Positions 155 through 13,161 of a DNA stretch of 64,000 nt are shown in pieces. A program made the translations under genes and the position numbers. The notes under the pieces are model-generated. The model worked only from the letters and a program-made list of their open reading frames with translations. It did no database searches and was not told the origin of the DNA. The DNA comes from Bacteriovoracaceae bacterium (GTDB taxonomy: Bacteria; Bdellovibrionota; Bacteriovoracia; Bacteriovoracales; Bacteriovoracaceae): positions 62,001 through 126,000 of the forward strand of contig JABFRR010000011.1 of NCBI GenBank assembly GCA_013141065.1. Reading direction: 5' to 3'. Positions within the stretch are counted from its first letter, which is position 1; each line of letters begins with the position of its first letter.

Positions 155-2287
155 TTAAATTTCTATTTTCAAACCAGTATAAACAAGCCTACCCGTATTA
201 GGTCCCCATACGTGTCTATTATCGAGATGAGTGTGACCTCGGTGCGTTCTCCATGATAGTGGAGACTCGCCATCTTTAGTCTGGGTGTAATCAAGAAGAT
301 TATTAACTCCAAGTAACCAAGAAAACTTACTAAATTGATATAGGTAAAAAACATCTAGAGTGAAAAATGTCGGTGACCTTTGACGTTTTTGATTTGCCGG
401 AATTTTATCAAAACTCATAGGATCTGGATCATCATTAAGCGTATTATAATTTTTATAATAACCATAGGGACTAAGTTTTCTAGGGCCTACGATATTGGCA
501 CTAACAACTACTTCATTCTTGCCAAAGTGGTAATCAGACACAAACCTCGCCCTAGTTTCTTGGGCAGCTGTTGGAAGTTTTTCTTTATATGAATCAGGTA
601 ACATAAACCAATCAAAACTGCTTTCCAAAGTCCAATCAGGTGTTATTTTTTGAATATGAAGCAGCCCTAGAGTCTTTATATTCATGGCAGTATTTGAATT
701 TTTAAATAAAACTGGAGAGGTTTCTTCGTCAGCAAAGGCCATGTTATTCAATCTAGTCCATGCAAATGAAAATGCAGAACTTGAATTATTGCCTTCATAA
801 TTAAGTGTGTAAGTAAAATTATGGGCCATTTCAAGCTTGGTAATACTCAACTCAAAACCCTCTTCATTTGTTCCATGTTGGGATTCAAACATGGACAATG
901 GGGCACGATAACCTACTCCATAGGCAAATCTCGATGATACTTTCTCATTATGAGTTCTTTTATAATGAACCCTAGGAGCAATTGCAGTCTTTCTAAGTTT
1001 ATTATTGAGGAGCCTTTTATCATCCCAATCAACATTCATATTATCAAATCGTAAAATTAAGTTAAGCTCATCATTTTCTGTAATGATCCATTCATCTTGA
1101 ATGTAGGCTCCATAAGTTTTAAATTTGAACGAATCTCTCTTGTAGTTACTAACTTTATAGAGATATTCCGAGCTAGATTTCATCTCTTCATTTTTATGAT
1201 CAATTCCAACTGTTAAAAAATGATTATCATTGATTACATTGTTTATTTTAAAATCAAAAAAACGAAACATATCTGTATTATTATAATCATAGCCATGGGA
1301 ATAAATTGATTTTTGAGTTTGTTTAGCGAGAGAAAAAGCTCCTTTTAAATTTATATCGTCATTAAGATGATAAGAAAGACTCCCGCCCGCATCAACTCGA
1401 TTGAGCCTTATTCTGTCACCTATTTTACTTAAGTCTCCTGTAAATTTATTGCGAATATCTCGATTGCTCCCAAAATCATCATTAGCATCTGTACTCGCTG
1501 GATAAGTTGTGGGTCTATAGGCCTTTGTGGTTCCACCAAGAAGTTCCAGGTCTTGATATCCTGCCCTTAGTGAAACTTTTAATTTATCACCAATTCGATT
1601 TTCTTTTTTTATAAAAATCGATTCTTGTGATTGCCTTGAAGACTCTGTTACATTGTTGTTATCAACATCAAATGAACCCATTAAATTTTTCTGAGCACCT
1701 ATTACTGTTCCCCCATAATTATCCCCATAAGATCCGAGAATTTCTTGATTGAGATACTGATGTGTTCCCCCTCGTATTTGATAAGTGAATTTCTTTTCAT
1801 TCGGAATCATTGTGATGATGTTAATTGCTCCACCGATTGATTCAGGAGCAGTTAGAGAAGCACCTGCTCCTCGCATAATTTCTAATTGACTAACTCCCAC
1901 CATGGGAATGGCTTCCATACCGTAGAAAGATGAAACTGATGAAAAGGCAGGTATCCCATCAATGAGAATAGTTGTATTTTCTCCCCTCATTCCATTTAAT
2001 GTGATTCTTTGAGATCCACAATTGGCACAAGTGAGGGTTGTTTGTACGCCTGGCTCAAGATCAACCGCTTTAGCCAAGCTTGTCGCATTCTTATGAGTGA
2101 TCTTCGCTTTTGTTAAGACTTCTTTTTTTATAACAGAATTTTTATTAATTTTAGATAAAGGAACATCAGAATCGAGTGTTCCAGTGACAACAATTGTATC
2201 AGACCCATTTTCATGGGCCTGTACAAAATTAGATAGCATCGTGATTATAAAAAAACAAATACTGAGCAAAGAACAAGAATTACTCAT
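155..2287 (-). CDS. TonB-dependent outer-membrane receptor with CxxC in plug domain (possibly copper related)
   Basis: Signal peptide; plug motifs 'GMRGENTTILIDGIPAFSS', 'LEIMRGAGASLTAPESIGGAINIIT'; 'TTLTCANCGSQRI'; C-terminal beta-barrel ending in an alternating pattern. Confidence 0.9.
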   Translation of the reverse strand: MSNSCSLLSICFFIITMLSNFVQAHENGSDTIVVTGTLDSDVPLSKINKNSVIKKEVLTKAKITHKNATSLAKAVDLEPGVQTTLTCANCGSQRITLNGMRGENTTILIDGIPAFSSVSSFYGMEAIPMVGVSQLEIMRGAGASLTAPESIGGAINIITMIPNEKKFTYQIRGGTHQYLNQEILGSYGDNYGGTVIGAQKNLMGSFDVDNNNVTESSRQSQESIFIKKENRIGDKLKVSLRAGYQDLELLGGTTKAYRPTTYPASTDANDDFGSNRDIRNKFTGDLSKIGDRIRLNRVDAGGSLSYHLNDDINLKGAFSLAKQTQKSIYSHGYDYNNTDMFRFFDFKINNVINDNHFLTVGIDHKNEEMKSSSEYLYKVSNYKRDSFKFKTYGAYIQDEWIITENDELNLILRFDNMNVDWDDKRLLNNKLRKTAIAPRVHYKRTHNEKVSSRFAYGVGYRAPLSMFESQHGTNEEGFELSITKLEMAHNFTYTLNYEGNNSSSAFSFAWTRLNNMAFADEETSPVLFKNSNTAMNIKTLGLLHIQKITPDWTLESSFDWFMLPDSYKEKLPTAAQETRARFVSDYHFGKNEVVVSANIVGPRKLSPYGYYKNYNTLNDDPDPMSFDKIPANQKRQRSPTFFTLDVFYLYQFSKFSWLLGVNNLLDYTQTKDGESPLSWRTHRGHTHLDNRHVWGPNTGRLVYTGLKIEI

Positions 2288-2699
2288 GATCTGCTTTTAC
2301 TAAATTCAAGCACTGAGCTGTATGATAATGAGTTCCATGTAACCATTTAAGAGCAAAGCTTACTGGCGCTTCAATTCCAGTTGAACCAACTGAAGTTAAG
2401 ACATTAATAAGATCTTTTTGATTTTCGCCAACACCAGTTAAAATCTGTGGTTTTCCACTTGGCTTAATTGTGAAAGTCAACTCACCTCCATGCTTTAAAT
2501 GATCATCACCGTCATCAAGGCTAACAGCTACGTCTGCTCTAAAATTTTCTGGAGTCTCAATATTATTTTCATAATAAGTTTGTTCAACCTCTATAACACA
2601 TGGCTCACCTGTACCTTTAACAGTTCCAACGAACGCAGTATGGGCAAAAGCAGTAGCTGAGAAAGAAAGAAAAATCACAGTAGACAGAATTTTATTCAT
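2280..2699 (-). CDS. Small periplasmic protein, His/Cys-containing ('WLHGTHYHTAQC'), coupled to TonB receptor
   Basis: Start trimmed to MNKILSTVIFLSF (signal peptide) preceded by GGAGGC SD; 8-bp overlap with the downstream receptor ORF. Confidence 0.7.
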   Translation of the reverse strand: MNKILSTVIFLSFSATAFAHTAFVGTVKGTGEPCVIEVEQTYYENNIETPENFRADVAVSLDDGDDHLKHGGELTFTIKPSGKPQILTGVGENQKDLINVLTSVGSTGIEAPVSFALKWLHGTHYHTAQCLNLVKADHE

Positions 2700-2855
2700 A
2701 AAGCCTCCATAGTTTAGATTTCCTTTATATTTCATTTGCGACTCACTTGCAATTGAAAATGCAACTTATTCGCAGCATGGTTAAAAACTATAAATAAATA
2801 TATGTAGGCTAACTATATGAAAATAAAAGCTCCTGTGAAAACCTTTAATGTTCTC

Positions 2856-3212
2856 TCAAGCTTTGACAACATAAGAAGCACACCATCCACAATTAGCGAC
2901 AAATTTCATCCCCATCATTGTACATGGTGCATAAGCACTGTCTTCTTTTGCTAGATTATAAAACTTGCAATTACCACAATGAGAACCCGCCTTATATTTT
3001 GCATTCTTTGATGTTTTTGCGTCTTCTACATATTGTAATGTTTTCCCCATTCCTTCCATTGGTTTTGCAATCATTTTTCCTTTTGGTGGAATAGCAGGGC
3101 ATTTGTCGACAGCAAATGACTTCATTGAATTCATCAGCATTGGTATACCAACAACTCCGGCCATTGCTAATTGAAAAAAAGATCGTCTTGTGACTTGTTT
3201 TTCTTCTGACAT
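2856..3212 (-). CDS. High-potential iron-sulfur protein (HiPIP)-like, Tat exported
   Basis: Tat motif 'TRRSFFQLAMAG'; C-x2-C ... C ... 'NCGWC' cysteine pattern typical of HiPIP; start trimmed to MSEEKQ. Confidence 0.75.
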   Translation of the reverse strand: MSEEKQVTRRSFFQLAMAGVVGIPMLMNSMKSFAVDKCPAIPPKGKMIAKPMEGMGKTLQYVEDAKTSKNAKYKAGSHCGNCKFYNLAKEDSAYAPCTMMGMKFVANCGWCASYVVKA

Positions 3213-3269
3213 AAATATCTCCATTTTTAAATTTGGAGTATAATATCAACTAATGCTAGATGGGAAAAT

Positions 3270-3284
3270 GCAACAGATTGCTGC
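3270..3284. promoter_or_regulatory. RegA-box-like dyad GCAAC-AGATT-GCTGC upstream of the HiPIP-like gene
   Basis: Same N5 spacing; flanked as TGCAAC...GCTGCA. Confidence 0.5.
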
Positions 3285-3288
3285 ATAC

Positions 3289-3320
3289 AAAAAGCCTACG
3301 CGAATGAGCGTAGAAAAAAA
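3289..3320 (-). terminator. Putative rho-independent terminator of the regA-like gene
   Basis: CTACGC-gaatga-GCGTAG stem with T-run on the minus strand. Confidence 0.6.
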
Positions 3321-3363
3321 TAAAATTTCTTAAGATTTAGTTCTGTAAATATTAATGGATTGA

Positions 3364-3900
3364 CTAAGGTTTCTTTCTTAACTTTCTTTGTAAACTCTGT
3401 CTATGAAGTCCAAGCTCCCGAGCTGTCTTGGAAATATTCCCCTCATTCACGTTTAATACATAATTTATATATTCATGTTCATTCTGAGACAAAGAAATCC
3501 TTTTAGAAAGATCTATATGCTCTTCATTTTTTAAATTGTTCTCTTTGGGGATGTGCGAATTAAAAGCTTCCTCAATTTGTTCAATGTTAGCTGGCTTGGT
3601 TAAATAGTTAATTGCTCCGAGCTTAACAGCTTCAACCGCAGTTGCGATACTTCCAAATCCAGTAAGTACAACGATCTTGCACTCGGTTAGTTGTTTTATA
3701 AGTAATGATATTGCGGCCAATCCACTCTCACCATTTAATCTCAAATCTACAATTGCAAAATTAAAGCTTCTGGCCGGGATCTGTGATAGTTGTGAAGCTT
3801 CAGTTACGCTGTAGCCTTTATCTTTAAAATCAGCTGCAAGAACTTCTCTAAGGCCTCTATCATCTTCAAGTATAAGTAGTTCTTTTAAACTACTATTCAT
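3364..3900 (-). CDS. RegA/PrrA/ActR-type response regulator
   Basis: Receiver domain (LEDD, VDLRL, VLTGFGSIATAVEAVKLGAINYLTKP) and Fis-type HTH 'NISKTARELGLHRQSLQRKLRKKP'. Confidence 0.85.
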   Translation of the reverse strand: MNSSLKELLILEDDRGLREVLAADFKDKGYSVTEASQLSQIPARSFNFAIVDLRLNGESGLAAISLLIKQLTECKIVVLTGFGSIATAVEAVKLGAINYLTKPANIEQIEEAFNSHIPKENNLKNEEHIDLSKRISLSQNEHEYINYVLNVNEGNISKTARELGLHRQSLQRKLRKKP

Positions 3901-5159
3901 GCGTAACTCCCTACTGGTGCCATAAACTTTACAACTGCACCTTTAGGCTGAAGATTACTAATGACGAGATTGCCTCCGATTGACTGTGCAAACATCAAAA
4001 AAGAATAAAGTCCCAACCCCGTTCCTTCTTTTTTTGTCGTCAAAAAAGGTTCCCCAAAACGCTCTAAAACATCCTTAGAAAAACCATCGCCATTATCGGT
4101 AATCACAACAACGAGACGAGAGTCTTCAATAGATAAATCAATCCTTATTCGATTATTAGAATTTGATTCGTATGCGTTATCCAAAATATTTAACAACCCT
4201 TGAGAGAAATTTAAAATTGGCAATTTTATGAAGGTCGGTACATCGGATAAAATATTAAATCTTAGGTCAGCATCTGGATGATCTAAAATCCAACTTTCTG
4301 TTATCTCCTTCAATGAAGATTTTAAATCTACAGACTGAAAAATATAATCTCTGTTATCTAATTGAGCATGATTCATGTACCTGATGATTTTTTCACAATT
4401 ATCAACTGCCTCTAATGCTGCCTTTGTATCTTCTGTTTTTTCCTTTCTAGCAATACGGTTCAATCGAAGCTTTACAGTATTGAGTGGACTCGCAAATTCA
4501 TGTGAAAAACCTGCGGTTAAAGCTCCAATTGCCCTAAGTCTATCCATTTTCTCAGCGTATATCTTCATTTGAGAAAGTTGTTCTCTTTGTGAAAAAACAT
4601 ACTTACTGACTGAACGTGTGATCACCCATACACAAAGTAAAATGGTCTGAATAAATACAGCACTCGAGATAAACTTAGAATGAAGAAAGTAATTATTTTG
4701 TGAGATTTGAATAATTAAAAAGCATAGAGCAATACAAAGATAAAATAATAAACTTTTCCGACCATTTAAAAGAATGGCACCTAAAGTTATATGTATAAAA
4801 TAAATAACTTCGGCCGGCACACTAATAACTTTTATTAAGAGCCAAAATAGTAGAGTAAACCAAATTAAATCTACAAGCAGTGAAGCAAAAGTAAGATAAG
4901 CAGAGGTAGTCCTCCCCATGGACTTCCAAATTCCAAACATTACAAAATTAAATGCTAAAAGAGAGCAACATACACCTACATAAAAAACTAACTCTCGATA
5001 ATTGGTGAAAGCTGTCATTAGATAAGGAATCACTAGAAAAAACTGAATGAATAGAAATATCCATCGCAAGCGAATAAGCCATAAAATTTTACCTTTCTCA
5101 GGATCAACTTCATCGATTGGCATCACAAGATATGTATATATATTTGATAAATATTTCAT
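3897..5159 (-). CDS. RegB/PrrB/ActS-type membrane sensor histidine kinase
   Basis: Multi-TM N-terminus, H-box 'GFSHEFASPLNTVKLRLNRI', N and G boxes (DNAYES, DNGDGF, GTGLGLYS); overlaps the response regulator. Confidence 0.85.
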   Translation of the reverse strand: MKYLSNIYTYLVMPIDEVDPEKGKILWLIRLRWIFLFIQFFLVIPYLMTAFTNYRELVFYVGVCCSLLAFNFVMFGIWKSMGRTTSAYLTFASLLVDLIWFTLLFWLLIKVISVPAEVIYFIHITLGAILLNGRKSLLFYLCIALCFLIIQISQNNYFLHSKFISSAVFIQTILLCVWVITRSVSKYVFSQREQLSQMKIYAEKMDRLRAIGALTAGFSHEFASPLNTVKLRLNRIARKEKTEDTKAALEAVDNCEKIIRYMNHAQLDNRDYIFQSVDLKSSLKEITESWILDHPDADLRFNILSDVPTFIKLPILNFSQGLLNILDNAYESNSNNRIRIDLSIEDSRLVVVITDNGDGFSKDVLERFGEPFLTTKKEGTGLGLYSFLMFAQSIGGNLVISNLQPKGAVVKFMAPVGSYA

Positions 5160-5200
5160 CTTCTATCCGTAAAAATTCTAGTGATTATATCCAAATCTTC

Positions 5201-5737
5201 CTACATTGACCTTAAATTTCTGCATTCATAAGAATCTTCACGAAGCCAAGAGACTCTATGAATCATCGCTCTAGTCGGTGCCTTCGTTTCACTGCTAAAA
5301 ATAAGAATATAATGATTATCACGACGATTGACTTTATACTGGGCTGCGAAAACTTGATTATATAAATGAGTTGTATCGTCCCCCCATCTATCTATTTCCC
5401 ATGGTTTTTCAACATCACCTGTCACTTCACCACAAGTTCCAGGCAAGTGAAATTCAGTATCATTATTTGTTCTTCTACTACCTAATAAAATTTCCATTTC
5501 ACGAGAATGAACACCTATGTCATCAAGACCAAACATCATTTGCGCATTAATATTGTTGCAATGTTTTCCCTTTGAAGGATTGGGAATTACCTCATTGATT
5601 TGAACATAACAAATTGTCTCCATTCTTTTTTCATTATGAAATAACACACCTCCATAAATTCTAGATTGTAAATTAATAACATCTGCCTGTACAAGCCATG
5701 AACTGGTTAATCCAATAAAAACTAATAAATTTTTCAC
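5201..5737 (-). CDS. Secreted protein of unknown function
   Basis: Signal peptide MKNLLVFIGLTSSWLVQA; divergent from the bd-like operon. Confidence 0.6.
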   Translation of the reverse strand: MKNLLVFIGLTSSWLVQADVINLQSRIYGGVLFHNEKRMETICYVQINEVIPNPSKGKHCNNINAQMMFGLDDIGVHSREMEILLGSRRTNNDTEFHLPGTCGEVTGDVEKPWEIDRWGDDTTHLYNQVFAAQYKVNRRDNHYILIFSSETKAPTRAMIHRVSWLREDSYECRNLRSM

Positions 5738-5793
5738 AAATATCCTCCGATTATATTTCTTATTTTATAAACCAAAAATAATCATTTGAACCT

Positions 5794-5808
5794 GCAACGA
5801 ATAGTTGC
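5794..5808. promoter_or_regulatory. RegA-box-like dyad GCAAC-GAATA-GTTGC
   Basis: Perfect 7-5-7 inverted repeat CTGCAAC/GTTGCAG (5792-5810). Confidence 0.6.
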
Positions 5809-5825
5809 AGTCAAGTTTTCAAACA

Positions 5826-5840
5826 GCAACAAGTTGTTGC
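5826..5840. promoter_or_regulatory. RegA-box-like dyad GCAAC-AAGTT-GTTGC
   Basis: Perfect 5-5-5 inverted repeat. Confidence 0.6.
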
Positions 5841-5841
5841 G

Positions 5842-5856
5842 GCAATAATTTGTTGC
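5842..5856. promoter_or_regulatory. RegA-box-like dyad GCAAT-AATTT-GTTGC
   Basis: One mismatch; third copy in tandem. Confidence 0.5.
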
Positions 5857-5914
5857 ATTTTATCCCACATTTTTTCTTGATATAAATCATAAAAACATAT
5901 TCAAAGGATAAGAC

Positions 5915-7321
5915 ATGGACTTTCCTGTTTTCCATCTAGATTTTCTAGGAAACAGATTATTGATTGCAATTATTGCCATCACTCACGTAATTATGAGTCA
6001 CACAATGGCCGTTGGAGGCATCCCCTTAATTACATTTCTCGAGTGGAAAAGTTACAAAACTAAAGATCCACGCTGGAGTAAACTGGCGTATAAAATTCTA
6101 TTTGTCTTTTTTCTTTTTACGACTTCTCTTGGTGCCATGACAGGGGTTGGAATCTGGTTTTCAACTTCATTAGTTAATCCGACTGCTATAGGAAGCTTAA
6201 TTAGAGTTTTCTTTTGGGCATGGTTCGTTGAATGGGGAGCGTTTGTCACAGAAGTTGTTCTCATTCTTTGTTATTATTTAACTTGGAAAAAGTGGGATAA
6301 CGATAAAGACAAATTGAAGCATATTAAACTTGGACTATATCTTAGTATTGCTTCTTGGATTACGATGGTACTCATCGTTGCCATACTGGCCTACATGATG
6401 GATGTAGGCTCATGGAAAGGAACTCATTCATTCTGGCACGCTGTCTTCAATCCCGTTTATCTGCCACAGCTTGCTTTCAGAACAACGTGGGGGATGTTTC
6501 TTGCTGGTGGAGCTGCACTTACAGTAATGGCATTTTTAAAAGATTTAGACGGTGAATTTTATAAAATGGGTCGCAAAAGTATTGCTAAGTGGATGCTCTG
6601 CTGGCTCCCTTTTGTTTTCCTTGCATCTTGCTGGTATTGGAGTGTCGTTCCTATACTTATGCGTGAGAATGTTCCTGCTGCTTTAACAACTCAAGTCTTC
6701 CAGCACTGGTATCAAGGGGTCTTAACTTATACTTTTTTAGGTGTAGGAATTATTGTCTTGATCGCTTTCATGATCTTGAATCCTAAAACAACTAAATACA
6801 TTAATAGACCGGCAATGATTATTCCTTACGCTATTGGCCTCGTACTTATTGGACAATTTGAAAGAGTTAGAGAATTTATTCGTAAGCCTTATGCTATTGC
6901 GAACTATTTATATGCCAATACAATTCGAGAAGAAGATCTACCTCTATTAACCAATGAGGGAATTCTAAAATATGCAAACTTTGCCAGAGTAAGAAAAATT
7001 ACAAATGAAAATAGAATTGAAGCAGGCAGGGAAGTTTTTAAAATCGCATGTACTAGATGTCATACTGTCTCAAATATTGGAATCAACTCAATTCAAGATA
7101 GACTTTATAGCATGTTTCAGGATCAACCAAGAGATGGTGAATTTAAAGACAATATCGAACATTATATCCTTAATATTCATCAAGCTCGTCCCTACATGCC
7201 TCCTTTTCCGGGTAACAAAGAGGAAGCAAGAGTACTTGCAGAGTATTTAGCACATCTTCATAAAAATAGAGAAGAACTCCTTGGTGACCAAGTCCTTGGA
7301 ACAAAATTAATCGATAACTAG
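5915..7321 (+). CDS. CydA-like (cytochrome bd superfamily) membrane subunit with C-terminal cytochrome c domain
   Basis: TM1 His motif 'ITHVIMSHTMAVGGIPLITFLEW', TM3 'FVEWGAFVTEVVLILCYYLTW' (paired Glu as in CydA), C-terminal 'CTRCH' heme c motif. Confidence 0.75.
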   Translation: MDFPVFHLDFLGNRLLIAIIAITHVIMSHTMAVGGIPLITFLEWKSYKTKDPRWSKLAYKILFVFFLFTTSLGAMTGVGIWFSTSLVNPTAIGSLIRVFFWAWFVEWGAFVTEVVLILCYYLTWKKWDNDKDKLKHIKLGLYLSIASWITMVLIVAILAYMMDVGSWKGTHSFWHAVFNPVYLPQLAFRTTWGMFLAGGAALTVMAFLKDLDGEFYKMGRKSIAKWMLCWLPFVFLASCWYWSVVPILMRENVPAALTTQVFQHWYQGVLTYTFLGVGIIVLIAFMILNPKTTKYINRPAMIIPYAIGLVLIGQFERVREFIRKPYAIANYLYANTIREEDLPLLTNEGILKYANFARVRKITNENRIEAGREVFKIACTRCHTVSNIGINSIQDRLYSMFQDQPRDGEFKDNIEHYILNIHQARPYMPPFPGNKEEARVLAEYLAHLHKNREELLGDQVLGTKLIDN

Positions 7322-7332
7322 AAGGAATATAT

Positions 7333-8394
7333 ATGCCACAATTTCATGATCTTCCATTACCACTTCCGGCACCAGAGTTTTTACTAAAAGCAATGCTAGT
7401 TATTTTCTTTATTTTGCACATTATCTTCGTAGAGATGATGGTAGGCGCCACAATTCTTTGCACATACTTTGAGTGGAAAGGGTTAAAAGAGAAGAATACA
7501 TTTTTTGATAAAGTGGCTTTCGAGATTGCAAAATCAATAACTGTTAACAAAAGCATGGCGGTAGTTCTAGGTGTTGGGCCTTTGCTTTTAATCAATGTCA
7601 CTTATACCATCTTTTTCTATTCTTCGAGTGTTCTTATTGGGAATGCTTGGATCTTAGTTATCCCCATGGCCATCTCGGCATTTCTTATAACTTATCTTCA
7701 TCAATACGCATGGGATTGGTTTGAAAATTATAAAAAATTACATGTTACGCTGATTGCAGTTGCCTCACTTCACTTCCTCATTATTCCTTTCTTTTTCCTT
7801 ACAAATACAAATCTTATGTGGTTCCCAACGGTATGGGATCAGATACATGGATTTTTCTCAGCATTATTTTATCCAAACATTTTTGCTCGCTATTTTTTCT
7901 TTCTGAGTACAACTTTAACTGTCACCGGAATTTTCCTCAACTGGCTATTTAATAAGAAAATTAAAAATGATGAATTTCATTACCCAAACAAAGATTCACT
8001 GGATAACTTATTTTTATCTTTTAATAGATTTGTCTTAGTTGGAATGTTTGGGCAAATGCTTTTTGGATCAGTTGTTATATTTACCGCTCAAAAAGAAGGG
8101 CTCGATAAAAATTTAATTCCCTTATTGATTGGAGTTGCCATCTTCTTTATTCCCCCTATGATTAATATGGCCAATGCAAACCTTAACAAAAAAACCCTTT
8201 CAGATTTTCAATTTAAAACAACTGTAGTCTCACTATTTATTTCAATTATTTTTGCAGGCGTTTTACGACATCACTTTAGAGAAAATGCTCTTTTACCTCA
8301 TCAGGTTAACATGAAAAAAAATACTGAAATCTATTTAGAAAAAATTAAAAATGCTAAAAAAAATTATGGTGTTAAGGATTATAAATATGAATAA
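7333..8394 (+). CDS. Second CydA-like multi-TM subunit, no heme c motif
   Basis: Same N-terminal topology ('FFILHIIFVEMMVGATILCTYFEWKG'); 11 bp downstream of the first subunit. Confidence 0.65.
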   Translation: MPQFHDLPLPLPAPEFLLKAMLVIFFILHIIFVEMMVGATILCTYFEWKGLKEKNTFFDKVAFEIAKSITVNKSMAVVLGVGPLLLINVTYTIFFYSSSVLIGNAWILVIPMAISAFLITYLHQYAWDWFENYKKLHVTLIAVASLHFLIIPFFFLTNTNLMWFPTVWDQIHGFFSALFYPNIFARYFFFLSTTLTVTGIFLNWLFNKKIKNDEFHYPNKDSLDNLFLSFNRFVLVGMFGQMLFGSVVIFTAQKEGLDKNLIPLLIGVAIFFIPPMINMANANLNKKTLSDFQFKTTVVSLFISIIFAGVLRHHFRENALLPHQVNMKKNTEIYLEKIKNAKKNYGVKDYKYE

Positions 8395-9235
8395 GATACT
8401 CTTTGCTATGACTACAATTCTCTTAATGTCTTGTTCACGTTCTCCATTTCTCGACGATAAGATTTTAGGTGGAAAGGTAGTTTTAAAATCACAACTGAAT
8501 AAAGGATTCCGAGTCTATCAGGCAAATTGTCTTTCATGCCATGGAGAAAAAGGCGATGGAACAGGAATTACCTATCGGGCACTTGTTACCAAGCCCAGAA
8601 ATCTGACTCAAGGAATATATAAATTTGGACTAAGCTTAGATGGAGGTCTTCCAACAGATGAAGATTTTGCCAATATTTTAAATCATGGATTGAGAGGGAC
8701 TGCAATGCTTCCCTGGGGGCTTGATCCAGATGAAGTCTTTGCAGTTACTCAATATATAAAGACATTTGCACCTCAAGTCTGGGAGGGGAAAAACTATTTA
8801 GCTCCTCAAAGGCCAAAATTCTCAAAAGATCCGTTTCAATACACATATGAAGCTCAAGCAATCGAGAGAGGTAAAAATGTTTATCATCAAACAGCTCAAT
8901 GTTTTACTTGTCACAGGGCCTACTTATCTGTTGAAGAAATGAAAAGTATTACAGGTGACCAGACTATCAATGAGAAGTCTGATATTTTCCAAGTTAAGCC
9001 TCAATTAACATCTTATTTTTTGGGGAAGATGCAAGAGGATTTGCTACCGAATACTCCACCCGATTTTAAATATCACAACGTTCGCTCTGCTCGAAATGTT
9101 GAAGAGCTTTATCATAGAATCTATGTTGGTGTGAACGGTACGGCAATGCCACCTTGGAATGGGACTATTACAGATGACGAGATTTGGTCTGTCGCTTACT
9201 ACGTCGACTCTTTAATAAAAGAAAAAAAGTTTTAA
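8387..9235 (+). CDS. Diheme cytochrome c lipoprotein
   Basis: Lipobox 'LLMSC'; CLSCH and CFTCH motifs; start trimmed to MNKILF. Confidence 0.8.
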   Translation: MNKILFAMTTILLMSCSRSPFLDDKILGGKVVLKSQLNKGFRVYQANCLSCHGEKGDGTGITYRALVTKPRNLTQGIYKFGLSLDGGLPTDEDFANILNHGLRGTAMLPWGLDPDEVFAVTQYIKTFAPQVWEGKNYLAPQRPKFSKDPFQYTYEAQAIERGKNVYHQTAQCFTCHRAYLSVEEMKSITGDQTINEKSDIFQVKPQLTSYFLGKMQEDLLPNTPPDFKYHNVRSARNVEELYHRIYVGVNGTAMPPWNGTITDDEIWSVAYYVDSLIKEKKF

Positions 9236-9242
9236 AGGACAA

Positions 9243-9285
9243 GCACTCGAAAATGTTTTAATTTTCCGAGTGCAGTCTTTTTACA
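9243..9285. terminator. Bidirectional terminator between convergent genes
   Basis: GCACTCGAAAAT...ATTTTCCGAGTGC stem-loop followed by T-rich tract. Confidence 0.65.
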
Positions 9286-9700
9286 TTTTCTCTACTTTTG
9301 CATCAACCGCAACAGTAGTCTTATTATCAAAAATCAAACTGATTTTATGCACGGCCCCTTCCTTTAAAGGATTTTTAAGCTTAAAAACCATGATGTGTAA
9401 TCCACCTGACTTCAATTCTGTCGTCTCATGTTGCTTTACTTCAATAGATTCAACTTTTCTCATGACCATCTTACCATTGGTCATTTCCATATTATGTAAT
9501 TCAAACTTTCCTGCAAAATCACCTTTAACATCAACAAGCTTCACATCCTTATCGGTATGATTTGTCATGTTCATAAAAATAGCTGTCATTGGAGTATTCG
9601 GAGGCGTAAGCCTAATTTTTGGATTTTCAATTTTTATTTTTCCTGCTGCAAATAAATTTAGAGAGAAAGCTAAAAGAAAAAATGAGAGAATGGTTTTCAT
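9281..9700 (-). CDS. PCuAC-family copper chaperone
   Basis: 'AIFMNMTNHTDKDVKLV...FELHNMEMTNGKMVMRKVESIEV...LKSGGLHIMVFKLKNPLKEG' (H-M-M-x-H-x-M type); start trimmed to MKTILS with AGGAGT SD. Confidence 0.85.
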   Translation of the reverse strand: MKTILSFFLLAFSLNLFAAGKIKIENPKIRLTPPNTPMTAIFMNMTNHTDKDVKLVDVKGDFAGKFELHNMEMTNGKMVMRKVESIEVKQHETTELKSGGLHIMVFKLKNPLKEGAVHKISLIFDNKTTVAVDAKVEKM

Positions 9701-9719
9701 AAGGACTCCTATGTAAGAA

Positions 9720-10319
9720 TTATAATTTTTTATTAGACTCTTCAAATATTTTATTAAGCTGAGATAAAATAACAACCTTAGGTGAGCCATGATGGATAGG
9801 CTCTAACAATTTTCCTTCAGAGGATAACACAATAATATCGGTTGAATGATCTACGGTATAACCCATTTCCGATTTTAATGGGACTTTCATAAAAACAATT
9901 CCAAAATAACGAGTGAATAAATCTAATTCTTTCAATGTTAATGAAACTGGAATAGTTTTTGAGTCAAAAAATGAAGTATATGTTTTTAAGTCTTCAACCT
10001 TATCTCTCTCTGGATCTAGATCAACAAAAACAAAAGCAATTTGGTCTCGTCTTTCTTTTGGTAAATCTTTAAACACACTTGCCATAGTCCCTAAAGTTGT
10101 TGGGCACACATCTGGACAGCTCAAAAAACCAAAATATAGTAGAACAACTTTATGTTTATCTTTGAGCTCTTTAAGAGTAATTACCTCATTACCTGTGTTG
10201 AGCTTTAGTAAGAATGGATTGAACTCCCTTTCTTTTTTATTCATTAAATATGAAATAACGAGTAGGGCCATAAGCGCTATGACGCTTAGTGAATTTTTTG
10301 TAATTTCTTTAACGTTCAT
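9720..10319 (-). CDS. SCO1/SenC-family copper chaperone
   Basis: 'GFLSCPDVCPTTLGTM', 'FVDLDPERD', 'DHSTDIIVLSSEGKLL'. Confidence 0.9.
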   Translation of the reverse strand: MNVKEITKNSLSVIALMALLVISYLMNKKEREFNPFLLKLNTGNEVITLKELKDKHKVVLLYFGFLSCPDVCPTTLGTMASVFKDLPKERRDQIAFVFVDLDPERDKVEDLKTYTSFFDSKTIPVSLTLKELDLFTRYFGIVFMKVPLKSEMGYTVDHSTDIIVLSSEGKLLEPIHHGSPKVVILSQLNKIFEESNKKL

Positions 10320-10372
10320 GCTAGCTAACCTCTGCTTCAGGCCATTTTAACACCTTAATTCAGTTATAGAAT

Positions 10373-10387
10373 GCAACTTTTTGTAGC
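10373..10387. promoter_or_regulatory. RegA-box-like dyad GCAAC-TTTTT-GTAGC between divergent Sco1 and YtkA-like genes
   Basis: N5 spacing, one mismatch. Confidence 0.45.
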
Positions 10388-10424
10388 AGTAAGTACAGTA
10401 AACATAAAAAATTGAGTCTCGCAT

Positions 10425-10439
10425 GCATTAATATGTTGC
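10425..10439. promoter_or_regulatory. Degenerate RegA-box-like GCATT-AATAT-GTTGC
   Basis: N5 spacing; one perfect and one weak half-site; further GCGAC half-site at 10453-10457. Confidence 0.3.
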
Positions 10440-10498
10440 AGGTACATTTCATGCGACTTGTTTTATAAAGATCGAATAAAATATTAAAGGAGTCGAGC

Positions 10499-10885
10499 TT
10501 GAAGATATTGCTGTTTGCATTTTCACTAATGGGGTTTATCGGACTAGTCGAAGCTTGTGAACCGAACGAAATCGCATTTCCTAAAAGCAAAGTATGTTCA
10601 AAGTTAACATGGATAACAGGGCCATCTATTAACCAATTCAATAGTGCAACTGTTCAGTTAAGTGAAACCAGCTTAAAATTAAATGTTACTCCATGGATGG
10701 TGATGATGGGTGGCCATGAGCACGGATCAAGACCAGTCATTATAAATGAAGTTTCTCCAAGTGATTATTTAATTGAAAAAATATATTTCATGGGTGGAAT
10801 GCAAGGCAGTTGGTTTTTAAAGTTTCAGCTTATCAATGATAAAAAAGAAATTGTCGAAGAAGTTCGTTCATTGGTTTCATTATAA
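10499..10885 (+). CDS. YtkA/FixH-like periplasmic protein
   Basis: 'WMVMMGGHEHGSRPVI' and 'KIYFMGGMQGSWFLKFQL'. Confidence 0.6.
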   Translation: MKILLFAFSLMGFIGLVEACEPNEIAFPKSKVCSKLTWITGPSINQFNSATVQLSETSLKLNVTPWMVMMGGHEHGSRPVIINEVSPSDYLIEKIYFMGGMQGSWFLKFQLINDKKEIVEEVRSLVSL

Positions 10886-11431
10886 ATGAAAAAATTAGTT
10901 TTTTTATCATTTTTACTTTTCCTTCAAACACAATTTACCTTTGCATCAGAAAAGGTAAATCTCCCGTCACTGATAGTTTCTCCTGAAAATAAAGAATTAA
11001 ATATAAATGAAATTAGAAAAATTAAAGTTCTCATTTTTATTAGCAAAACCTGTCCATGTACACAACAAAACATTCCATACATAAATGAGCTTGCAAAAGA
11101 TTTTCCTAATATTGATTTCATCGGCATTCACTCTGTTAAAACGACAACACAAAAAGACATAGATGATATTTTATCTCAGCATCATCCAAAGTTTTCTATT
11201 GTTAATGATAAGGATTTAAAAATTGCAAATATTTTGAAGGCCAACAGAACTCCTCAAGCCATTATCTTGAACGACAAAAATGAAGTTTTATATAATGGTG
11301 GCATAACAAATAGGACCAATCCAAAAAATGCCGACAAGCTCTATTTAAAAAATGCACTAGCTGAAATTGCAAACAACAAAGAAGTTACTGAAAAAGAAAC
11401 AAGGTCATTAGGATGCGTTATTATTCGATAA
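10886..11431 (+). CDS. Redoxin/thioredoxin-like secreted protein
   Basis: Signal peptide; 'VLIFISKTCPCTQQNIPYINEL'; 'RTPQAIILNDKNEVLYNGGI'. Confidence 0.8.
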   Translation: MKKLVFLSFLLFLQTQFTFASEKVNLPSLIVSPENKELNINEIRKIKVLIFISKTCPCTQQNIPYINELAKDFPNIDFIGIHSVKTTTQKDIDDILSQHHPKFSIVNDKDLKIANILKANRTPQAIILNDKNEVLYNGGITNRTNPKNADKLYLKNALAEIANNKEVTEKETRSLGCVIIR

Positions 11432-11835
11432 TATTATTGGTCTGCTTGCTTACAGGTTGTGGAAAATCACCTCTTTTTAACAAAGTGACTAAAACGGCTG
11501 GTGAAATTTCTGGCAATATTCTGTTAAGTGAAAATTTTCCTATGAAGAACATTGAATTCTCTCTTAATTGGAAAACTCCTCCCAGCCTTGAAGAGTTAGG
11601 CGTTTTTGAGATTGAATTAAAAGAGCCACTCGCTCCCAATCTTTCGATAAATGCTTTTATCTGGATGCCTGAAATGGGTCATGGCTCTTCTCCAATCGAA
11701 GTAATAAAAAGTAGTGATCTAAACTATGTTTTCAGTGAAGTCGCATTTATCATGCCAGGTCTTTGGGTTCTTCATGTTGAAATACTAGAAAATAATAAAG
11801 TGGTTGATAAATGGCAAAAATCTATAGTTCTTTAA
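11413..11835 (+). CDS. YtkA/FixH-like lipoprotein
   Basis: Lipobox 'LLTGC'; 'FIWMPEMGHGSSPIEV', 'AFIMPGLWVLHVEI'. Confidence 0.65.
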   Translation: MRYYSIILLVCLLTGCGKSPLFNKVTKTAGEISGNILLSENFPMKNIEFSLNWKTPPSLEELGVFEIELKEPLAPNLSINAFIWMPEMGHGSSPIEVIKSSDLNYVFSEVAFIMPGLWVLHVEILENNKVVDKWQKSIVL

Positions 11836-12680
11836 TTTTATTTTTATTTTCAAATCTCACCTATGCAGCTTCATGCTGTGGTGGAGGGCAGTCTGCTTCT
11901 TCGGTTATGATAGCAGATCACTTACAGGAATGGACAATCTCCACAAATTTCCGTGATGACTTGGGACAAACTAATAATGAAGGCCTTGCATTAATGGATG
12001 GTGAACAAAATAAAGACCAAACTTTTACAAGTGCAATTGAATATAAAAAATTATTAAGCGCCCGAACTCAAGGCAATGTTAGTGTCAACTATATACAAAA
12101 AGAAGCAAAACGATTGGGAAAAAATGAAACAAATGGTGGATTTGGCGATTTGGCCCTAGGTTCCTTTTATGAGGCATTAACAAATTATAATTATATTCCA
12201 CTTGCCCCTAGAATCTTCACCGGCATTAAAATAATTATTCCTTTTGGCGAAAATAATTTTAATTCAAAAAAAGAACTAAGAACTGACATAAGAGGCACAG
12301 GCTTTTACAAAATAGATCTTCCAATTGTTGGTGTAGTAAACGCTTGGAAGTTTAGCATTTCCCCTCAATACCTACCTGATCAAAAAAATCTTTCTTCTAC
12401 TTATGCCTTCGCGACAGCAGGCACTTATACATATTCGGTCACTGAAGAAATCGATATTTCTGGAACTCTACAATGGAGTTACCTAGCGAAAAAAAAGTAT
12501 CAAAATCAATCTCTGATTGCCGGTCAATATTGGGAAGTAAGTATCTCACCTTCATGGATGTTATCTAAAAATAATTCATTAAATTTAAATTATAGTGATT
12601 CTACTTTATTAGGTATAAGTAGAAACTCTGCTCTTTATAGGTCTGTTTCATTGGGTATGACTTGGTCTGAATTGCTTTAA
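11811..12680 (+). CDS. Outer-membrane beta-barrel-like protein with N-terminal CCGGG
   Basis: Signal peptide then 'ASCCGGGQSAS'; alternating-strand composition. Confidence 0.55.
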   Translation: MAKIYSSLILFLFSNLTYAASCCGGGQSASSVMIADHLQEWTISTNFRDDLGQTNNEGLALMDGEQNKDQTFTSAIEYKKLLSARTQGNVSVNYIQKEAKRLGKNETNGGFGDLALGSFYEALTNYNYIPLAPRIFTGIKIIIPFGENNFNSKKELRTDIRGTGFYKIDLPIVGVVNAWKFSISPQYLPDQKNLSSTYAFATAGTYTYSVTEEIDISGTLQWSYLAKKKYQNQSLIAGQYWEVSISPSWMLSKNNSLNLNYSDSTLLGISRNSALYRSVSLGMTWSELL

Positions 12681-12699
12681 ATAATATTAGGAGATTTTT

Positions 12700-13161
12700 A
12701 TGAAAAAACTAGCGACACTTATCTCAATCTGTATTCTCTCTATCTTATCGTCTACTTTTGTATTTGCACATGACGATCATCCTACACCTGCCGCACACTT
12801 AACATATAAGAAGGGATCGTTGCATATTCATGCTGATTTTCTTAAAACTCCAATCACAGGAGAAGAGGCCTTCCTAAAGCTAGAAGCACGTGATGGTAAG
12901 ACACACAAACTTATTGATATTCAAGACGATATTGATGTTGATTTATGGATGCCTGATATGAACCACGGCTCATCTCCTACATTAGTTGAGCGAGCTATCG
13001 ATAACCAAGGTAATCCAATCACTGGTACTTTTATCGCTAAAAGTCTATACTTCGTAATGGCCGGGACTTGGGATGTAAAAGTCACTCTGAAAGATTCAAG
13101 TAATGTTTCTGAAACAAAAAAATTCTCGCTTAAGATTAGCGGATCTGGACACGATCATTAG
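12700..13161 (+). CDS. YtkA/FixH-like periplasmic protein
   Basis: 'DLWMPDMNHGSSPTLVER', 'LYFVMAGTWDVKVTL', His-rich termini. Confidence 0.65.
   Translation: MKKLATLISICILSILSSTFVFAHDDHPTPAAHLTYKKGSLHIHADFLKTPITGEEAFLKLEARDGKTHKLIDIQDDIDVDLWMPDMNHGSSPTLVERAIDNQGNPITGTFIAKSLYFVMAGTWDVKVTLKDSSNVSETKKFSLKISGSGHDH

Follow-up and report, generated by a model that had tools for sequence, protein, structure and literature searches.

What does a cytochrome bd-type enzyme do that carries c hemes and lacks CydB, and under which conditions would a cell need it? An operon in the window, the whole stretch of 64,000 nucleotides analysed here (a Bacteriovoracaceae bacterium, contig JABFRR010000011.1), raises this question. 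To our knowledge, the non-quinol bd families are widespread and unproven as oxygen reductases, and no copper-independent cytochrome c oxidase has yet been demonstrated. Based on sequence comparisons, we propose, with a probability of about 0.6, that the operon encodes a copper-free CydAA'-type O2 reductase which is fed by cytochrome c or HiPIP and which is activated by a RegBA-like system, together with copper chaperones, when the heme-copper oxidases fail. If this is true, we would be dealing with a cytochrome c oxidase that is independent of copper, for which likely donors can be named, namely HiPIP and a diheme cytochrome c related to one from an aa3 operon, and for which the expression conditions are predicted. 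New here is the regulatory context, which consists of the RegBA-like system, its putative boxes and the place that cytochrome bd takes in related species.

Organization of the operon

The operon consists of three tightly packed genes on the plus strand and is part of a larger island (2856-13161) that has operator-like boxes in common. Gene 1 (5915..7321, 468 aa) encodes a CydA-type catalytic subunit with eight transmembrane helices (TM) and a C-terminal periplasmic monoheme c domain (CTRCH), gene 2 (7333..8394, 353 aa) a second CydA-type subunit with eight TM (CydA'), and gene 3 (8387..9235) a diheme cytochrome c lipoprotein with the heme motifs CLSCH and CFTCH, whose start overlaps the end of gene 2. 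Although the open reading frame of gene 3 opens at 8351, we prefer the start at 8387, since it has a Shine-Dalgarno-like AAGGA 8 nt upstream and yields the lipoprotein signal MNKILFAMTTILLMSC with the lipobox LMSC. The preliminary description had recognized three tandem genes, with a fused heme c in the first, a second CydA-like membrane protein, a diheme lipoprotein and no visible CydB. All of this is borne out by the reading frames, by the two CxxCH motifs and the lipobox of gene 3, and by the homology searches below. The overlap of genes 2 and 3, the island, the RegBA-like regulator with the boxes, HiPIP, the copper chaperones and the kinship of gene 3 with an aa3-oxidase subunit go beyond that description.

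Gene 1 has kept the oxygen-reducing site of CydA and lost the quinol side

We found that gene 1 matches the CydA structure 5doq_A with phmmer (E=8e-7), and that in hhalign a profile built from ten homologues matches canonical CydA across TM1-4 (98%, E=1.6e-13). The predicted model of gene 1 matched 5doq_A in Foldseek (E=1.7e-5), and the best PDB matches for the models of both gene 1 and gene 2 were bd-oxidase subunit I chains; these three-row AlphaFold models are of low confidence (pLDDT 53 and 65). Sequence and fold together thus identify the four-helix CydA core of the bd superfamily in gene 1, and both subunits are of the CydA type rather than of an unrelated fold. The Pfam model PF01654 matches neither gene 1 nor any other protein of its genome. 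A homologue of gene 1 in another genome of the phylum (G294) is matched above the cut-off with 55.5 bits, and the miss is a sensitivity limit of the model and not a defining biological feature. The C-terminal domain of gene 1 is a cytochrome c domain (PF13442); the G294 homologue (L014) has two CxxCH motifs.

In the hhalign alignment, H24, E106 and E113 of gene 1 correspond to H19, E99 and E107 of E. coli CydA. E320 corresponds to E445, with E320-xx-R-x-P-Y lying on E445-xx-R-x-P-W; the match is weak (E=0.007) and the motif exact. The preliminary description had made its reading depend on a conserved TM1 His and TM3 Glu pair. In ten homologues from three phyla, H24 and E106 are invariant and E113 is nearly so, and on this point the reading therefore stands. 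The heme c is likewise present in all ten, with C379, C382, H383 and M428 invariant, and Met428 is a candidate for the sixth heme ligand. The numbers of Lys and Arg residues per loop alternate (1, 6, 1, 6, 2, 5, 1, 3), which puts both the N-terminus of gene 1 and its c domain on the periplasmic side.

In contrast to these sites, the quinol-side and b558 residues of E. coli CydA, His186, Met393, Lys252 and Glu257, all invariant across 24 canonical CydA sequences, have no counterpart in gene 1, and the loop at the position of the long Q-loop has only about 19 residues. Gene 1 therefore differs from the quinol oxidases (qOR, CydAB) in its b558 ligands, its Q-loop and its missing CydB partner, whereas it shares with them the equivalents of His19, Glu99, Glu107 and Glu445 and, in related species, the same upstream box. 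The loss of the quinol site together with the gain of a heme c suggests that O2 is probably reduced with electrons from periplasmic carriers.

The partner subunit and the diheme cytochrome c

Gene 2 is related to 5doq_A (phmmer, E=6e-4), to gene 1 (hhalign, 97%, E=6e-11) and to CydA (91%, E=1e-6). A role as CydB can be ruled out, since hhalign against CydB gave nothing, and no CydB is present at the locus. Gene 2 has kept the TM1 His (His29) and has lost the TM3 Glu pair. In its nearest homologues (L002, L003, L004 and L006) a C-terminal c domain is fused to this subunit, which is absent from gene 2 in the window; at the G341 locus (L013) two c domains are fused to it.

We considered whether gene 3 is a c domain that has become separated from gene 2, and rejected this. 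It does not match the monoheme tails of L003 and L004 and matches only that of L013 weakly. Instead, it shares 45% identity with the diheme lipoprotein encoded in the aa3-oxidase operon of the same genome. That operon (L086) has the order COX15-UbiA, COX2, COX1, COX3, diheme c, SCO1, COX4; it thus resembles the window operon and its surroundings in a related diheme lipoprotein and a SCO1, and differs in encoding a heme-copper enzyme and in that no box was found there. A single full-length copy of this type of diheme protein is the rule among relatives from the same family, while the genome of the window has two. A recent duplication of the aa3 copy is not supported by the tree, in which the copy in the window falls outside the group of the genus and has a long branch. 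The genome also encodes a cbb3 oxidase.

From these components we can outline a possible electron path. HiPIP or a cytochrome c would reduce the diheme lipoprotein, which would pass electrons to the heme c at the C-terminus of gene 1, and from there they would reach the two active-site hemes of gene 1 and finally O2. Gene 2 would act as a structural partner in place of CydB, and copper would not be needed by this oxidase.

In archaea, the CydAA' enzyme, which consists of two CydA paralogues, is a quinol oxidase, and genes 1 and 2 are the same kind of CydA pair. The enzyme might hence be a quinol oxidase after all, with a non-canonical site, while the c hemes feed electrons elsewhere or merely modulate its activity. 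We regard this as unlikely, given that His186, Met393, Lys252/Glu257 and the long Q-loop are without counterpart, that every homologue of gene 1 carries the heme c, and that a diheme protein of the aa3-operon type is added here.

The periplasmically fed oxidase that we favour resembles two families of the superfamily. The OR-C family was reportedly defined by Murali, Gennis and Hemp in 2021, and we take a C-terminal heme c on CydA and the absence of a quinol site to be its defining features; both are present in gene 1. The likeness to OR-C noted in the preliminary description therefore holds at the level of the family description, with a CydA-type core, a fused heme c, no quinol site and no CydB. 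Unlike OR-C, gene 2 has no c domain and is followed by the aa3-related diheme lipoprotein, and the operon is accompanied by the RegBA-like regulator and the boxes. The CydAA' proteins of the sister family OR-N in Nitrospinota and Nitrospirales also combine two CydA paralogues with a proposed oxidation of cytochrome c (PMC10839748, PMC12342949), and the one of Nitrospinota is described as a probable cytochrome c oxidase for which experimental proof is lacking (PMC10839748). The window differs from them in its C-terminal heme c. Moreover, the OR-N5 copies in Nitrospirales follow genes of alternative complex III (PMC10839748, PMC12342949), whereas the operon in the window adjoins a RegBA-like system.

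Distribution of the operon

Clear homologues of gene 1 were found in 6 of 369 genomes of the phylum. A pattern scan gave two genome records, one of which (L003) is apparently the same locus as that of G356. Homologues are also located on plasmids of Agrobacterium, Thermus and Methylosinus, and no relative was found in viral contigs. This patchy distribution suggests horizontal transfer or frequent loss. The GC content of the island resembles that of the window.

The surroundings of the homologues vary. In two loci (L015 11236-12516 and L016 7220-8446), gene 1 is preceded by a gene for a hydrophobic protein of 408-426 aa, without a Pfam match in L016. The G294 homologue is followed by nrfA-, napA- and napB-like genes (L014 1914-9141), and the G341 locus (L013 1-6096 and 8822-11682) combines upstream genes for NrfD, a ferredoxin and c-type proteins, which look like those of alternative complex III, with the doubly c-fused gene 2. 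On pMSC49c, a plasmid of Methylosinus, methanobactin biosynthesis genes stand next to the homologous oxidase, a cytochrome c and a RegBA-like pair (L012 7983-12925 and 13852-17329).

A RegBA-like system and its predicted boxes

Upstream of the operon and divergent from it lie the genes for a RegA/PrrA-like response regulator with a REC domain and a Fis-type HTH (3364..3900, minus strand) and for a RegB/PrrB-like sensor kinase (3897..5159, minus strand). Their best curated families are ActR/PrrA/RegA and ActS/PrrB/RegB with 126 and 112 bits, which is below the NCBIfam cut-offs of 250 bits (NF033791) and 350 bits (NF033792); judged by sequence, the system is RegBA-like, and we do not claim membership of RegB/RegA for it. 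The kinase has the redox-active cysteine, since Cys255, which we equate with Cys265 of RegB, is invariant in seven kinases. It has lost the quinone-binding motif GGxxNPF, which is exact in L004, L010, L012 and L015 and near-exact in L003 and L016, and its signal may therefore differ.

Five Bdellovibrionota loci (the window, L003, L004, L015 and L016) and the Agrobacterium and Methylosinus plasmids (L010 and L012) have a RegBA-like pair in the vicinity of gene 1 or its homologue. Near the homologues of G294 and G341, which adjoin nitrate/nitrite-reductase-type or NrfD/ferredoxin genes, neither the regulator nor an upstream box was found. An exclusive link between the regulator and the gene 1 enzyme can be ruled out, as the regulator is more widely distributed (66 of 358 genomes).

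In the window, three boxes of the form GCAAC-N5-GTTGC precede gene 1 (5794-5808, 5826-5840 and 5842-5856, the last with one mismatch). Another operator-like box, GCAACAGATTGCTGC, lies upstream of the HiPIP gene (3270..3284), and a fifth with one mismatch, GCAACTTTTTGTAGC, upstream of the copper chaperone genes SCO1-PCuAC (10373..10387). Allowing up to one mismatch, the window contains six such boxes, five of them in the island, where 1.12 are expected, and none of 100 shuffles reached six. Three other exact boxes of the genome lie inside predicted reading frames and were left out of the count. We derived the palindrome, with the consensus GCAAC-N5-GYTGC, from the window and its gene 1 relatives, and these few loci therefore do not count as independent cases. 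In L003, three identical boxes stand before HiPIP, before gene 1 and before an operon with YtkA and CopC. Across the phylum, 17 of the 20 loci with a homologous regulator contain a perfect box (0.17 expected), in contrast to none of 50 control loci (0/26 aa3-diheme and 0/24 other cytochrome c loci).

These data point to the RegBA-like regulator as the protein that acts on the predicted boxes. It is improbable that the boxes belong to another regulator and merely coincide with the RegBA-like genes. The Agrobacterium and Methylosinus loci would fit such a coincidence, since they have the regulator and no such box upstream of gene 1. It is opposed by the 17 of 20 regulator loci with a perfect box, by the co-occurrence, described below, of the box before cydA with the regulator, and by the Fis-type HTH, which would suit a short palindrome. 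Control by the RegBA-like system would mean that it switches on the oxidase, HiPIP and SCO1/PCuAC together.

The same box precedes canonical cytochrome bd in relatives

When the canonical cydA genes are split by whether their genome encodes the regulator, a perfect box lies 58-100 nt upstream in 6 of 12 cases with the regulator and in 0 of 12 cases that lack it (Fisher two-sided, hand-computed, approximately 0.014, with the six boxed cases coming from two genera and not being independent). In a genome from the genus of the window (G009), the regulator lies beside HiPIP and near a TonB-dependent receptor, and a boxed canonical cydA is present without gene 1. The genome of the window is the converse: its gene 1 is boxed, and its assembly (92% complete) contains no canonical CydA. 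In G356, the box is missing before cydA and present at the gene 1 locus, which is the one of L003. Gene 1 without cydA is found in the genome of the window, G039 and G211, but cydA occurs in only 24 of 144 genomes of the phylum.

Since the same box precedes canonical cydA in relatives with the regulator, the gene 1 enzyme appears to fill the regulatory slot of cytochrome bd, and the redox-sensing switch above the operon seems to control ordinary cytochrome bd instead in related species. We tentatively suggest, at slightly less than even odds, that one RegBA-like regulon in Bdellovibrionota has just one place for a bd-type enzyme, its bd slot. Either canonical quinol cytochrome bd or a copper-free oxidase of the bd superfamily, fed by cytochrome c or HiPIP, would occupy this slot, and the module would serve to bypass and repair heme-copper oxidases that are failing. 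If so, the locus would provide a regulatory argument that one non-quinol bd family does the job of cytochrome bd.

The box before cydA also bears on the substrate. SCO1/YtkA-type genes are known to accompany denitrification operons as well, and one homologue, that of G294, stands beside nrfA-, napA- and napB-like genes. The enzyme could accordingly be a detoxifying or respiratory reductase, fed by the c hemes, that reduces NO or a related nitrogen oxide rather than O2. We consider this very unlikely, because the active-site residues are those of O2-reducing CydA, the box of the regulator precedes canonical cytochrome bd in relatives, and none of the other homologues read was seen to have a gene for a nitrogen-oxide reductase next to it.

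Island neighbours and a possible link to copper

Further genes of the island may hint at the conditions under which the oxidase is induced. The HiPIP (2856..3224, minus strand; PF01355), a candidate periplasmic electron donor, adjoins the regulator in the window, L003 and G009. Downstream of the operon follow, on the minus strand, the copper chaperones PCu(A)C (9281..9700; PF04314), whose reading frame opens at 9790 while a start at 9700 is likelier, and SCO1/SenC (9720..10319; PF02630). The plus strand then encodes a thioredoxin-like exported protein (10886..11431), a YtkA-like lipoprotein (11413..11835; weak Pfam match), a porin-like exported protein (11811..12680) and a YtkA-like exported protein (12700..13161; PF13115). 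The genome has three other SCO1 matches, and the chaperones of the island are therefore not its only ones. As a raw count, 7 of 10 gene 1 loci have genes for SCO1, PCuAC, YtkA, CopC, DUF1775, ZnuA/CobW or methanobactin in their neighbourhood, and several of these copper-type neighbours are retained in regulator islands without gene 1.

The closest precedent is the RoxSR-CIO system of Pseudomonas aeruginosa, which, with SenC and a copper-starvation response, is similar to the window in its PrrA-type regulator, its bd-type oxidase and its copper-sensitive respiratory chain. RoxR, a relative of PrrA, is reported to activate the bd-type oxidase CIO (Comolli and Donohue 2002, cited in PMC5266731). 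CIO is a quinol oxidase, whereas the putative target in the window is a c-heme enzyme, with similar boxes at HiPIP and SCO1/PCuAC. Judging from these neighbours and this precedent, the inducing signal is most likely the failure of the copper-dependent aa3 and cbb3 oxidases, as may be caused by copper shortage, NO, cyanide or sulfide. The induced set would then both bypass these oxidases and repair them.

RegBA/PrrBA systems classically respond to redox state and oxygen. It is therefore possible, although we hold it to be the less probable case, that the enzyme is a cytochrome-c-fed O2 reductase whose regulon answers low oxygen or the general redox state, the copper genes being adjacent for other reasons. 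The regulator locus of G198, with no copper chaperone in the stretch read, would agree with this. Such an explanation accounts less well for the copper/zinc-type genes near 7 of the 10 gene 1 loci and for the boxes before SCO1-PCuAC here and before the YtkA and CopC operon in L003.

Two further elements accompany the regulator. A TonB-dependent receptor and its exported partner of 151 aa (155..2735, minus strand) are also found close to the regulator of G009 and of G117, and relatives that lack the oxidase keep the pair in the vicinity of their RegBA-like module; its substrate is perhaps a metal complex. An assignment as a known copper receptor is not supported, as the best match is of the vitamin B12 type and far below the cut-off. 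An exported protein of 178 aa (5201..5737, minus strand), which has no Pfam or NCBIfam match, is conserved in several regulator islands, and its counterpart in G013 is 85% identical.
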